From assembly GCF_002863565.1 (NCBI RefSeq), contig NZ_PGUW01000015.1, forward strand, positions 62,001-126,000: a stretch of DNA of 64,000 bases. Direction: 5' to 3'. The notes below the pieces were generated by a model. That model did no database searches. It saw nothing but the letters and a program-made list of their open reading frames with translations, and was not told where the DNA came from. The position numbers were made by a program, and so were the translations under genes. This document shows, one piece after another, positions 11,185 to 25,202 of this stretch (position 1 is the first letter of the stretch; each line of letters opens with the position of its first letter). The stretch is from Bacillus sp. V5-8f (GTDB lineage Bacteria > Bacillota > Bacilli > Bacillales > DSM-1321).

Positions 11185-11454
11185 ATGCTAGAAAGGAATT
11201 TACAACGCATTGTGATTGGATCTGCAATGGTTCTGGCTACATCGGCACTATTGCCTGTTGTAAAAAACTCCATGCGCCCGATCGTCAGGGATGTATCGAG
11301 ACAAATGAAGTATTTGATCGTTATGACCAAAGAAGGAATTGAAGATTTTGCGGCAGAGGTTAAATTTGAACGAATTCGAAAAAGCCTGGATAAAGATATT
11401 TTTATCGATGGGGAAGCATATGAATCTGAAAACCAGAACCGTATCTTTCATTAA
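11185..11454 (+). CDS. Small membrane protein downstream of the ATPase (DUF5132-like)
   Basis: The 89-residue product has one hydrophobic segment (VIGSAMVLATSALLPVV, about residues 10-26), then RPIVRDVSRQMKYLIVMTKE and a charged helix. The pattern of a hydrophobic start, a conserved P..RP motif and a charged tail resembles DUF5132 proteins near P-type ATPases. AAGGAGG is 7 bases before the ATG. It lies 67 bases after the ATPase gene and 33 bases before the next one, so the three are probably cotranscribed. Accessory-subunit function is inference. Confidence 0.65.
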   Translation: MLERNLQRIVIGSAMVLATSALLPVVKNSMRPIVRDVSRQMKYLIVMTKEGIEDFAAEVKFERIRKSLDKDIFIDGEAYESENQNRIFH

Positions 11455-11487
11455 AAGTAAGATGTATGGCATTGAAGGAGAGATAAA

Positions 11488-11727
11488 ATGGAAAAAAATC
11501 AGGATAATGAAGTAATTGGCCATTTGAAACAAGCCCTTACGCATCTTGATCAGGCATTGCATGCAACCATTGCATCACTCCGGGATGATCCTTCTGCAAA
11601 AAAAAGCCTTGGCCCCCTTTGGGAAGAATTTCTTGGTGCCTTTTTTGGTCGCGTACGTTCAGTGGGGAAAGAAAATAAAATCAATTTATTAAACCTGATT
11701 TCATTTGCAAAGCTAAGAAAATTTTAA
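11488..11727 (+). CDS. Small helical protein, last gene of the ATPase operon
   Basis: The 79-residue product is predicted helical with an N-terminal acidic/polar part (GHLKQALTHLDQALHATIAS) and a basic C-terminus (ISFAKLRKF). There is no signal peptide or recognised domain. GAAGGAGA precedes the ATG by 6 bases. A terminator follows about 115 bases downstream. Confidence 0.6.
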   Translation: MEKNQDNEVIGHLKQALTHLDQALHATIASLRDDPSAKKSLGPLWEEFLGAFFGRVRSVGKENKINLLNLISFAKLRKF

Positions 11728-11843
11728 TGAAAGCCGGATCCATTCGAAACCTGAGGTATCGTGCAGGGGAATGGCTAAATGCACGTACCTTGAGTATATT
11801 AAGCTTCAGGCGACAGTTCCATAACAATTATTGGACAAGTAAT

Positions 11844-11884
11844 AAAACCCTCGTTGACTCCAATTAGAGTGATCGAGGGTTTTT
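11844..11884. terminator. Terminator between the ATPase operon and the receptor fragment
   Basis: AAAACCCTCG pairs with CGAGGGTTTT around a 20-base loop, with T/A tracts on both sides, so it can serve both strands. Confidence 0.8.
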
Positions 11885-11910
11885 CGTAACAAGGCTGGAA
11901 AATAATGTCT

Positions 11911-12090
11911 CTAGGATTTAAAGATCCCTATAGCTTGCTTCAGTTTTTCTGTAGAAGAAGCCAGCTCGGCCATTTTACTGTTGATTTCCGCCATGGATGC
12001 TGTTTGCTGCTGTACTGCTGCTGAAACCTCCTCAGAAGAAGCGGCTGTCTCTTCTGTAACGGCACTAATAGTAAGTAAAGACTCCAAATA
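11911..12090 (-). pseudogene. 3' fragment of a methyl-accepting chemotaxis receptor
   Basis: The minus strand encodes TISAVTEETAASSEEVSAAV, QQQTASMAEINSKMAEL and a natural end QAIGIFKS-stop. This is the typical last coiled-coil segment of MCPs. Upstream, a stop follows within a few codons of LESLL, and nothing receptor-like continues, so only about 58 codons remain. A short frame with its own AAGGAG site (MDVAKDVVFGVF, near 12110) abuts it in another phase. Confidence 0.75.
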
Positions 12091-12404
12091 CTACATCTTT
12101 TGCTACATCCATCATCTCCTTATAATTTTCATCTTTACAAATGCTCCTTGCGGGTTGTTTGATATAAAAAAAACCTTGTGCGATGAGGGCTTTTTTTATT
12201 GAGTGGATGCTCTGCTAGGGTTTATTTTGTTGCCTTAAAACTGCAAGAATAATTGGAAACAGACCTATTAAATGTAATTTGTAAATTGGATAACCTGCAA
12301 CGGTTTTATATTTTTTGCAAGAATTAACAAGCTTATATGTGCACTTTGCTTATTTTTACTTCAATACTTATACTAGGTTTAGACTCTATTTTCTTAAGGC
12401 ATAC
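12091..12404. other. Intergenic stretch without supported gene
   Basis: Only a weak A-rich/T-rich hairpin near 12165-12200 is seen. Open frames here are short and lack ribosome sites. Confidence 0.4.
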
Positions 12405-21921: not shown

Positions 21922-22286
21922 TATAGGATCGCTTCCAATGCTGCTTGGAATAAAGTTAGTAAAATCAAATATTCAGAAAGCCAACAATTAATAGTACCGG
22001 GTAAACGATATAGTTGAAGGTTTGCAATACTTTTTAGAGACATAACTATTCTATTTATATTTTGTATTACTCTATGAGGGCATCCATTTATGGGTGCTCT
22101 TTCCATATGCAATCAATCATGTTGTTACCTCTTTACTGTTTTAATTTTTAGTTATTTATCAATAGTAAATTAGTCTGTGTTTCGTGAAGCTAGTTACAAG
22201 AATTTGTTGATTTACAGTAAATTTATCCCTAACTAAATGTGTTTCCCATATAATGTCCTTAAGCACATTGAAAAGAGGCGAATATT

Positions 22287-22474
22287 ATGAAAACCTTTAA
22301 ATATGCTAAAGAATTAACCTATCTAATGACGAAATTAAACATCCATGTTTCTGAGGCAAAAGAGTATTCCGGGCAATCAATGAATTAAAAATGGCATTGG
22401 TGAAAAATGAAGGAGACTGTAATAGGGTTGAACGTAAGCTTCAAACTTTATTCAAAAAAAAATCATTCAGGTAA
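22287..22474 (+). pseudogene. Small gene with a one-base frameshift
   Basis: ATG 22287, preceded by AAGAGGCG, reads MKTFKYAKELTYLMTKLN then IHVSEAK. Near an AAAA run (about 22360) the coding sense moves to another frame: RVFRAINELKMALVKNEG, then NRVERKLQTLFKKK to a stop at 22472. Adding one A to the run restores a continuous frame of about 62 codons. The family is unknown. Confidence 0.45.
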
Positions 22475-22565
22475 TGGTGAGCACTGGAAACACTGCTTCA
22501 TAATCCTCGATTACGCTTTCTGTGACTTCTACCTCCAAACTACAATAATAACTATTTATTTAGAG

Positions 22566-22598
22566 AGCAGTACTCGCTTACTTACGAGTGCTGTTTTT
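22566..22598 (+). terminator. Terminator after the small frameshifted gene
   Basis: AGCAGTACTCG pairs (with wobbles) with CGAGTGCTGTT, followed by a run of T. Confidence 0.7.
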
Positions 22599-22760
22599 TA
22601 TTGTAAAACGATTCTTTAATTTTATTCTTTTTTAATGGATAATAGGCAATTAAGCCAAAAAGCTAGTACATTGTACTGTAGGAGTACAGAATCAAATTGC
22701 GTGTAAAAACCTGGTCAAACCCCTATACTATAGAAGATTAAAAAATTGGAGGGATAAAAT

Positions 22761-23393
22761 ATGCATATTGAAATGTGGACCGATTTTGCTTGACCATTTT
22801 GCTATATTGGCAAACGGCGTCTGGAAGACGCCATTCAGAAGATTGACCATGTAATTGAAGTGACCTACAGGTGTTTTGAATTGGATCCGACAATGGGACG
22901 GGACATAAAAGAAAACATGTATGAAATGTTATCCAAGAAATATGGCATGAGTATAGACCAAGCAAAGGCAAATACGGCTAATATGGTCCAGATGGCGAAG
23001 GAAGTCGGATTGGATTATCAGTTGGATACCCTAATCTTAACGAACACCTTTGATGCTCACCGTTTGACGATGTTTGCGAAAAAGCATGGGTTAATGAAAG
23101 AGATGACTGACCGTATTTTACGTGCATATTTCACCGAATCCAAGCATATTGGTGACCATGAAACATTAACGGAGTTGGCAGCGGAAGTGGGCTTAAACCG
23201 GGAAGCTGTTGCAAAAATGCTTTCAAGCGATGAGATGGCCGACGAAGTTCACGCTGATGAGCAAACCGCACAACAGTACGGGGTTTCAGGGGTCCCATTC
23301 TATCTTATAAATAAAAAGTACGCCCTTACTGGTGCTCAGCCAACTGAGGTGTTCGTACAGGCATTGCAAAAAATCCTTGCAGAAGAAGAATAA
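22761..23393 (+). CDS. DsbA/FrnE-like thiol oxidoreductase with TGA at the first active-site Cys (candidate selenoprotein)
   Basis: The 211-codon frame starts at ATG 22761 with GGAGGG 7 bases upstream. It reads MHIEMWTDFA-TGA-PFCYIGKRRLEDAI, where the FrnE/2-hydroxychromene isomerase-like DsbA family has CPFCYIGKRR. The only defect is TGA at codon 11, exactly at the redox Cys. C14 and the cis-Pro loop GVSGVPFYLINKKYALTG are intact. The rest is full length with no other lesion, including the helical insertion (MAKEVGLDYQLDTLILTNTF). A 7-bp hairpin with a GGA loop lies 29 bases after the TGA. Either TGA is read as selenocysteine or this is a single nonsense mutation. The annotated span assumes readthrough; without it, no useful product forms. 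Confidence 0.75.
22816..22832 (+). promoter_or_regulatory. SECIS-like hairpin inside the oxidoreductase gene
   Basis: GGCGTCT, loop GGA, AGACGCC forms a perfect 7-bp stem. From the end of TGA to the loop is 29 bases, inside the 16-37 base range described for bacterial SECIS elements, and the loop begins with G. It also encodes the conserved RRLEDA residues, so chance is possible. Confidence 0.5.
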
Positions 23394-23758
23394 CTGTTTT
23401 AAACAACCAAGATGGCCTATCTGTGATGACGATGGATGTGAAATCCCTAAAAGATAGGAGTTAGTTAAATAACTCATGCCTATACATTGTAAAATAAGAA
23501 GTGGTCTCCGTGAACCTGTAAACAAGGAAATCGGAGGCTTATTCTGTTTTTGAGAGGCATGTTTTCATTTGTTTTTTTTCTAATATTGCCAAGGGACATT
23601 TTGTGGGTATCGTTGAATATATTCGGGCTGTGTTTGGCACCTATTTCGTTGGGGAATGATTTCTCTTACTCTATTGCAGTCCTTGTAAGGACCAATATAT
23701 GTTGATAAAAAACGGATAACAAACCTATGGCAGTTAAGTGCCGCTATTTGCTAATAAG
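23394..23758. other. Intergenic stretch without supported gene
   Basis: A weak inverted pair (GTCTCCG...CGGAGGC, about 23503-23540) could end the oxidoreductase transcript. Nothing else is seen. Confidence 0.4.
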
Positions 23759-23796
23759 AAAAGCCCGATAATAGGTTCGACCGATTACCAGGCTTT
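23759..23796 (-). terminator. Terminator of the YjcZ-like gene
   Basis: AAAGCCCGATAAT and ATTACCAGGCTTT form an interrupted stem 10 bases beyond the minus-strand stop, with TTTTC following on that strand. Confidence 0.7.
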
Positions 23797-23805
23797 AAAT
23801 GAGGA

Positions 23806-23910
23806 TTAATAACCTCCGCAAACTGTGCAGCCAATAATCACCAGTAATACGAAGATTACAAGGATAAAAGCAAATTGACCGCCGTAGCCGCCGCAAGAGT
23901 ATCCACTCAT
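23806..23910 (-). CDS. YjcZ family sporulation protein
   Basis: This 34-residue protein has the family layout: MSGYSCGGYGGQFAFI, a single hydrophobic span (LVIFVLLVIIGCTV), and a short CGGY end. AAGGAGG lies 7 bases before the ATG. Members are small membrane peptides made during sporulation; the molecular role is unknown. It is too short for most gene finders. It has its own terminator. Confidence 0.85.
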   Translation of the reverse strand: MSGYSCGGYGGQFAFILVIFVLLVIIGCTVCGGY

Positions 23911-24155
23911 ATAGTATCCTCCTTTGTGAGTTAGTGAAAAAGCGATCCTTACACTTTTCATACTATGTACAAACCAATCAATAGGACAGGGGAGAAAGTT
24001 TGTCCTATTAAAAAATGTGTCTTTTCATCAGTTAAACTAATGTAAAGACTCAGCCACCTTACGAGCTTGTACATACTATAAACGCGGAAGAGAAAAAACG
24101 TTTACATCAAAAAAATTACAAATTCTTAATGGATATTTTAATCGGTTAAAAGTAA

Positions 24156-24194
24156 AAAAGGGACGACATATTTTATGTAAAATGTCGTCCCTTT
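24156..24194. terminator. Strong hairpin downstream of the Asn/Gln-rich gene
   Basis: AAAAGGGACGACAT pairs with ATGTCGTCCCTTT around a 12-base loop. A/T tracts on both sides allow termination in both directions. Confidence 0.85.
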
Positions 24195-24255
24195 GATTTT
24201 ATTGACCTTGCCTTACCCTATCTAGAGATAAGAGTAATGGCGTTTTTATATAAAA

Positions 24256-24435
24256 TTATCTGTTTTGATTATTGTTTCCTTGGTTGTTGCGGTTATTATT
24301 TCTATTTTGGCCAGTTATAGTATCAACCACATTTTCCAACCCTTGCCCAATTGCGCCAAGAAAACCGTTTTGTTGGTTATTGTTTTGGCCATTATTATTG
24401 TTGCGTTGGCCTTGATTTTGATTTTGATTTTCCAT
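24256..24435 (-). CDS. Small Asn/Gln-rich low-complexity protein
   Basis: The 59 residues consist of an N/Q/R-rich head (NQNQNQGQRNNNNGQNNN), a hydrophobic core (GFLGAIGQGLENVVDTITG), and an N/R-rich tail. ATG 24435 is fixed by GGGGAGGTGA 6 bases upstream; the frame is open further. There is no signal peptide. Prion-like composition around a short amphipathic core suggests self-assembly, perhaps in the spore coat, but this is inference. Confidence 0.65.
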   Translation of the reverse strand: MENQNQNQGQRNNNNGQNNNQQNGFLGAIGQGLENVVDTITGQNRNNNRNNQGNNNQNR

Positions 24436-24556
24436 GCGTATCACCTCCCCTAAGTGTATGATGTACAATATTGATGTAATTTATTTAGAGTATAACAGTC
24501 GTTGCTTTTATTAATATTGGGCGTGCATTGCGTAGTTAGATTGTTGATAACCAAGC

Positions 24557-24766
24557 TTATATTTGGTCACCCATTTGTGCTCTGTATTCATAACCTTGGG
24601 CTTTATGTTCGCTTGCCCTTGCTCGGTTACTATAATAAGAACGAGCATCATGTGCTGACGCTTCCTTCATCCGTTTATACTCCTCGCTTTGTGAAAGATG
24701 ATACATAAATGCGCTGTAAAGATCCTGTTGACAAGTTTGGTTTCGATATGGATTTTGATTAGCCAT
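24557..24766 (-). CDS. Small polar protein, unrecognised
   Basis: The 69-residue product (MANQNPYRNQTCQQDLYSAF, then SEEYKRMKEASAHDARSYYS and a Tyr/Arg/Ala-rich end) is hydrophilic and rich in Tyr, Ser and Gln. AAGGAGG lies 8 bases before the ATG. It sits beside other small, possibly spore-related genes. Function is unknown. Confidence 0.6.
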   Translation of the reverse strand: MANQNPYRNQTCQQDLYSAFMYHLSQSEEYKRMKEASAHDARSYYSNRARASEHKAQGYEYRAQMGDQI

Positions 24767-25202
24767 AATTTTTCCTCCTTATTAAATCCTCAAAGGACCC
24801 ATGAACCACAGTCAGTAGAGGCTAACTGCTACTTGTTTAAGAAGAAAAAAATTTCAGCTAACTTCCTAATATAACTGCGGATTTTTCAGTGTATCAGCGA
24901 AGAAAGATTTATCAATCGATTTTCCGAGGATAAAAATAAAGGAAATAGAGTACCCGATCAACCATTTTACAAAGAAAACGTATTTGGCCCCGCCTTCGCC
25001 AAATACTATAGTAGCCACTCTTGCTACCTCACCTAAATGTAATTGCAACATGGTAAACCGCTGTGAGTGATAAACTTTCCCTTTCTGCTTGAAAATAAAA
25101 CATGGGAATTTTTTCAAAAAAAGCCTGACACATCCTGATAGAGAATTGTTGATATATGTAAAGGAAAAATTTTCGAATGTTAAACCGAAATACTACATAT
25201 GT
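24767..25202. other. Gap holding one copy of a dispersed GGCGAAGG repeat
   Basis: At about 24988-25012 the sequence ATTTGGCCCCGCCTTCGCCA can fold with ATTTGGC/GCCAAAT arms. A close relative lies at about 29088-29112. An open minus-strand frame across it is judged spurious. Confidence 0.45.

Follow-up and report, generated by a model that had tools for sequence, protein, structure and literature searches.

We identified a gene in Bacillus sp. V5-8f whose product is almost certainly a cytoplasmic thiol-disulfide oxidoreductase of the FrnE family, in which SelB and tRNA-Sec, directed by a downstream hairpin, insert selenocysteine (Sec) at the UGA of codon 11. The gene, which encodes a FrnE-like (DSBA, PF01323) protein of 210 amino acids with Sec at position 11, occupies positions 22761-23393 on the plus strand of the 64,000-nucleotide stretch of DNA that was analysed, here called the window. 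We favour this reading because the Sec machinery is present in the same genome, the TGA is conserved in selB-containing genomes (two MAGs apart), the hairpin covaries, synonymous change is suppressed around it and the protein has the FrnE fold.

Between the ATG at 22761 and the TAA at 23391-23393 the frame is interrupted by a single in-frame stop, the TGA of codon 11 (22791-22793, plus strand), which takes the first position of the CPFC redox motif. The resulting U-P-F-C motif (22791-22802, plus strand) sits where the first helix of the thioredoxin fold begins. A Shine-Dalgarno sequence, GGAGGG, is located 7 nt ahead of the ATG (22748-22753, plus strand). Thus, the initial annotation, which had described a full-length gene with a good ribosome site and one defect at codon 11, was accurate. 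The mechanical ORF call starts at a GTG at 22860 and yields only 177 amino acids, and a search of the gene against NCBIfam gave nothing over the cut-off, with three weak matches; genes of this kind are therefore easily mis-annotated. The earlier remark that other genes of the window carry nonsense codons was followed by a crude scan for frames interrupted once, which required 30 or more codons in frame on either side of the stop, 140 or more in total, and a position outside long frames. It gave four places, each with TAA or TAG, and was blind to stops near gene starts.

Pfam assigned the protein to DSBA (PF01323) with an E-value of 6.4e-45, and the best solved relatives are FrnE of D. radiodurans (3.1e-46) and SCO1869 of S. 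coelicolor (4.7e-46). An AlphaFold model, built from 32 sequences with residue 11 modelled as Cys, reached a pLDDT of 88.9 and a pTM of 0.83, while two of the five models scored poorly (64.5 and 63.7). The model places a strand at residues 2-7 and a helix at residues 12-26, with residue 11 directly ahead of the helix, and Foldseek matched it to 5cnw (TM 0.94, rmsd 1.6, 40% identity). Val178-Pro179 (23292-23297, plus strand) is invariant in the 32 aligned sequences, and we take it to be the expected cis-Pro loop of the thioredoxin fold. Sequence and fold therefore both confirm the earlier DsbA/FrnE-like assignment. Membership of the FrnE subfamily was judged by a DSBA thioredoxin domain with an N-terminal UxxC in place of CxxC, and this is the arrangement found here.

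If codon 11 is read as Sec, the genome should encode the decoding machinery, and this had been named as the check to make. We found all of it: selA (491.8 bits), selB (371.5 bits) and selD (365.9 bits) lie side by side on contig C15, above curated cut-offs, and a tRNA-Sec is encoded on the same contig (C15:83462-83554; 62.4 bits against a gathering score of 47), where ARAGORN agreed in calling tRNA-SeC(tca). The window itself is part of contig C7. By eye, a recombinase-like minus-strand frame (L012:1501-2871) ends 120 nt past the tRNA-Sec, an arrangement that would fit an element integrated at this site.

Further candidates for Sec decoding lie in the same genome. Its selD itself carries a TGA in an AGUGCK motif (L003, about 11264-12315), and the selD TGA also occurs at all six selB loci L050-L055, one of which (L051) is the genome's own. 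Beside selD, a SelW-like Rdx frame of about 80 codons runs from L003:11137 downwards on the minus strand and contains a CxxU with TGA (Pfam PF10262, 9.1e-22); its TGA is shared by L050 and L052, and a motif search did not find the CxxU frame in L053-L055. Together with the FrnE gene, these bring the candidate selenoprotein genes of the genome to at least three. A Sec-containing formate dehydrogenase was considered and rejected, as none of the four molybdopterin-family matches had an internal stop (open frames of 687-1002 amino acids).

To follow codon 11 through related bacteria we used 70 named loci, found with short peptides of the window protein, so that this sample favours close kin. The codon was TGA in 69 of the 70, in records titled, among others, Neobacillus, Mesobacillus, Cytobacillus, Fictibacillus, Planomicrobium, Planococcus and Aquibacillus, which answers the earlier question whether close relatives carry TGA or TGC/TGT here. 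The exception is Paenibacillus agricola (L120) with TGT, whose protein is 57% identical and whose genome gave no selB match; after its motif (L120:5001-5100) a stem-like CGCCGC..GCGGCG can be seen by eye, either a remnant or chance. Two of the records (L093 and L101) are titled Chryseobacterium sp. ISL-80 and Pseudomonas sp. ISL-84 and hold genes typical of the Bacillaceae clade; they are probably mislabelled. Within the GTDB genus, 34 of 36 genomes had a homologue at E <= 1e-20 and two had none. The TGA form occurred in three (that of the window, G009 at 86% identity and G015 at 85%), and 31 had only Cys-type frames. Thirty of these genus loci were fetched, with 26 TGT, one TGC and three TGA at codon 11.

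The TGA form goes together with selB. Among the 70 named genomes, 50 were searched (49 TGA, one TGT), and selB was matched in 47 of the 49 with TGA, one of them a MAG (L067) with a partial match and an internal TAG; the two misses are MAGs (L068 and L083). The single TGT genome searched had no selB match. In the GTDB family (43 genomes), the three TGA genomes all fall within the 14 that have selB, and 29 of the 31 genus genomes with only Cys forms are without it. In an order-level sample of 150 genomes, scored with at most 8 candidates per genome, 121 had a homologue at E <= 1e-45, and all 26 genomes whose homologue held one TGA were among the 75 with selB (Fisher P=2e-9 over all 150 genomes including the 29 without a homologue, not phylogenetically corrected). 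We fetched 17 of these 26 genes (18 with that of the window), and none of them had a stop within its first 205 codons other than the TGA of codon 11; this codon was thus inspected in 18 of the 26, the other eight being counted on a single internal TGA. Two further order homologues had a TAA. Some genes occur both in the order sample and among the named loci (L142 and L116, for instance, encode an identical protein), and hence the two samples are not independent. Many selB-containing genomes of the order have only a Cys-form FrnE or no homologue, so the Sec form is not obligatory.

A bacterial SECIS (bSECIS) hairpin follows the TGA at 22816-22832 (plus strand). Its stem pairs GGCGTCT (22816-22822) with AGACGCC (22826-22832) around a GGA loop (22823-22825), and stem and loop begin 22 nt and 29 nt after the TGA, in agreement with the 7-bp stem and spacing originally reported. 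Published constraints ask for a loop of 3-9 nt, a stem of 4-16 bp, a spacing of 16-37 nt, a G in the first two loop positions and a minimum free energy of at most -7.5 kcal/mol, according to the available text of the source (PMC13188914). The hairpin lies within all of them, with a loop of 3 nt that starts with G, a stem of 7 bp, 29 nt of spacing and -9.9 kcal/mol. The 60 nt from the TGA onwards fold with -16.1 kcal/mol (z -2.35), and four of 200 shuffles were at least as stable; folding energy alone is modest support for the hairpin. A chance origin is excluded by the conservation of the TGA in the named loci. The 17-nt cores were weaker than -7.5 kcal/mol in two of 72 TGA rows (-6.4 and -6.8). 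Among 16 further genes of the main clade (L127-L142, one duplicate), the hairpin was part of the predicted fold in 15, shortened to 5 bp in L131; in L140 another fold was preferred. A small upstream hairpin (22798-22814, plus strand) is predicted only, and we do not claim it as part of the signal: it had no two-sided changes, and one of its pairs was unpaired in 23 of 63 distinct rows.

Comparison of 70 aligned TGA genes (63 distinct) revealed compensatory changes in the stem. Pair 32-48 is GC in 39 genes, GU in 18, AU in nine and unpaired in four, and pair 35-45 is GC in 52, AU in 15 and GU in three. For example, a change of codon 20 from Arg to His is accompanied by GAC to GAT in codon 23, and a change of codon 19 from Arg to Lys by GCC to GCT in codon 24. 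The 18 two-sided cells and the covariation score exceeded 500 of 500 shuffles, which ignore relatedness, and every slid version of the hairpin, while the numbers of pairs with two-sided change and of further pair types did not stand above the shuffles (reached by 437 and 442 of 500). With published constraints and compensatory change in agreement, the SECIS-like hairpin of the initial annotation is borne out. Synonymous diversity was measured in 68 genes (L071, L111, L022 as a duplicate of L058, the Cys form L120 and the partial L125 were left out). In codons 12-25 it dropped to 0.42 of the gene mean, the fifth lowest of 191 windows of codons, and the four lower ones all overlap this segment; codons 14, 15, 17, 20 and 21 had no synonymous diversity at all. 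Since the hairpin sequence doubles as coding sequence for conserved residues, and diversity is reduced in codons 2-10 as well (0.57), part of this constraint may reflect the protein or the 5' end of the gene.

These data bear on three other explanations of the TGA. It could be a nonsense mutation or a sequencing error in a dying gene, a view to which the window copy lends something, as it has no in-frame C-terminal tail and the tail sequence lies downstream in other frames. But the identical TGA in 69 of the 70 named relatives, from several genera, the grouping of 72 TGA rows (two of them duplicates) in one clade against 28 Cys rows, and the restriction of TGA forms to genomes with selB, two MAGs apart, make this extremely unlikely. 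The core of the window copy remains an open frame, and its identity to relatives reaches 88%. Alternatively, translation could start later, at the GTG where the mechanical ORF begins, with the TGA region as a leader and a protein without redox motif. A protein begun there would lack the fold's first strand and helix. The Cys forms share the conserved N-terminal segment that holds the U/CPFC motif, and GGAGGG precedes the ATG at 22761; we consider a late start very improbable.

Finally, generic read-through of UGA is known, and ribosomes might insert Trp or Cys at codon 11 without SelB. This would leave unaccounted for the covariation of the hairpin and its synonymous constraint in TGA forms, as well as the company that TGA forms keep with selB, and we give it hardly any credence. 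Each kind of computational test applied here points to Sec at codon 11, subject to the weak points already given.

To trace the origin of the Sec form we computed trees with the codon-11 column masked. The 72 Sec rows (two duplicates) formed one clade against 28 Cys rows in a tree rooted on a Cys row, with a printed support of 0.0; after 20 sequences had been added and the root placed at the midpoint, a clade of 88 Sec rows had a support of 0.81 and no Cys form inside. One FrnE homologue with TGA at codon 11 (L126; G123:C32:45017-46252), 51% identical and from a genome with selB, is instead placed among Cys forms, together with two of them (support 0.96). The weak hairpin predicted for it (-8.3 kcal/mol) has an 8-nt loop with no G in the first two positions. 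Judged from these features, L126 possibly represents a second independent Cys-to-Sec event, or else a nonsense mutation.

The Sec forms also differ in their C-terminus. Of 86 unique Sec forms, 66 have a tail with two Cys and 65 the CX4C motif, while both counts are 29 among the 31 Cys forms (Fisher P=0.058 for the two-Cys counts, uncorrected). Counting losses only, the two-Cys tail is absent in eight groups of Sec forms (among L059-L136) versus two of Cys forms. In the window copy CX4C is missing from the frame; tail sequence lies downstream of its stop in other frames (23391-23457), and comparison with the tails of relatives revealed an out-of-frame remnant, ICDDDGCEIPKR, at 23419-23457 (plus strand). 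This may be either a real loss or a sequencing error, and with its CX4C tail lost in frame the window copy could be decaying. One might speculate that FrnE exchanged Cys for Sec on two or more occasions, in the main clade and in L126, and that Sec forms then repeatedly shed the resolving CX4C since selenium makes the tail dispensable. We hold this to be doubtful; if true, the exchanges and tail losses would amount to a natural experiment on the benefit of Sec to an enzyme.

How might the protein work? FrnE of D. radiodurans has disulfide isomerase activity and reduces insulin, and its C-terminal CXXXXC, a motif found in many but not all FrnE members, is proposed to regenerate the active site (PMC8945050, section 2.4, as far as the available text goes). 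By analogy, we infer that Sec11 is the attacking and Cys14 the resolving residue. After SelB and tRNA-Sec have decoded the UGA, as the hairpin 29 nt downstream would direct, the selenolate of Sec11 would attack disulfides of small thiols or proteins and then form a selenenylsulfide with Cys14. In most relatives the CX4C tail would regenerate the site, as proposed for D. radiodurans, and in tail-less copies, that of the window included, thioredoxin or a low-molecular-weight thiol may do so directly.

The surroundings of the gene added no partner. We took the frames of 70 or more codons up to 5 kb away from each of 69 named loci (less at contig ends), clustered them by blastp and rejected a conserved operon: the gene itself and overlapping antisense frames aside, the largest cluster occurred at 13 of the 69 loci, with no constant partner. 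In the window, 22113-22859 and 23394-24865 hold no other mechanical ORF of at least 80 amino acids. Rfam at gathering scores gave no match over 22000-23900, and the promoter and terminator scan found 3 and 1 sites versus 6.2 and 1.1 in shuffles.

DsbA-like selenoproteins with UxxC are already in print, and the clade described here appears to be a new lineage of this known kind. The accessible parts of the literature describe nine DsbA-like UXXC selenoproteins of COG2761 (PMC1088965), DsbA 1 and DsbA 2 with UxxC (PMC2398784), 45 DsbA-like selenoproteins from 41 organisms (PMC5029168), a DsbA-like protein form 1 (PF01323, UxxC; PMC13188914) and three selenoprotein families in Bacillales (PMC1794560). 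Compared by description only, these proteins are alike in a UxxC read with Sec within a DSBA-domain protein, whereas the consulted portions of the accounts mention neither a Bacillaceae and Planococcaceae clade nor a covarying hairpin nor the CX4C tail. The literature searched, mostly outside subscription journals and without supplements, likewise contained no account of such a FrnE Sec clade. We take COG2761, to which published marine selenoproteins belong, to be the FrnE group. D. radiodurans FrnE (DR_0659; 5cnw, 5xwh) shares the fold and a CPxC-type site, and has a CX4C like most relatives of the window protein; it carries Cys where the window protein has Sec, and the window copy lacks the in-frame CX4C. 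Cys-form FrnE proteins of the same genus belong to the same family, with CPFC at the same codons (best copies 49-56% identical), but codon 11 is TGT or TGC in all 27 that were fetched. No hairpin was found in three order-level Cys genes that were folded; other Cys genes were judged by eye only. Lmo1059 of Listeria, a DsbA-family Cys enzyme with a CPFC motif, reduces GSSG and insulin and is linked to diamide tolerance (PMC10715225, from the available text); likened by its description, it may serve as a guide to the likely role of the window protein.

Because dozens of related bacteria have kept both the codon and the RNA signal, the predicted selenoprotein of the window is very likely real. It adds a well-supported clade of predicted selenoproteins in Bacillaceae and Planococcaceae. 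Since relatives hold Sec and Cys forms, with and without the resolving tail, why selenium is used in this family is directly testable.
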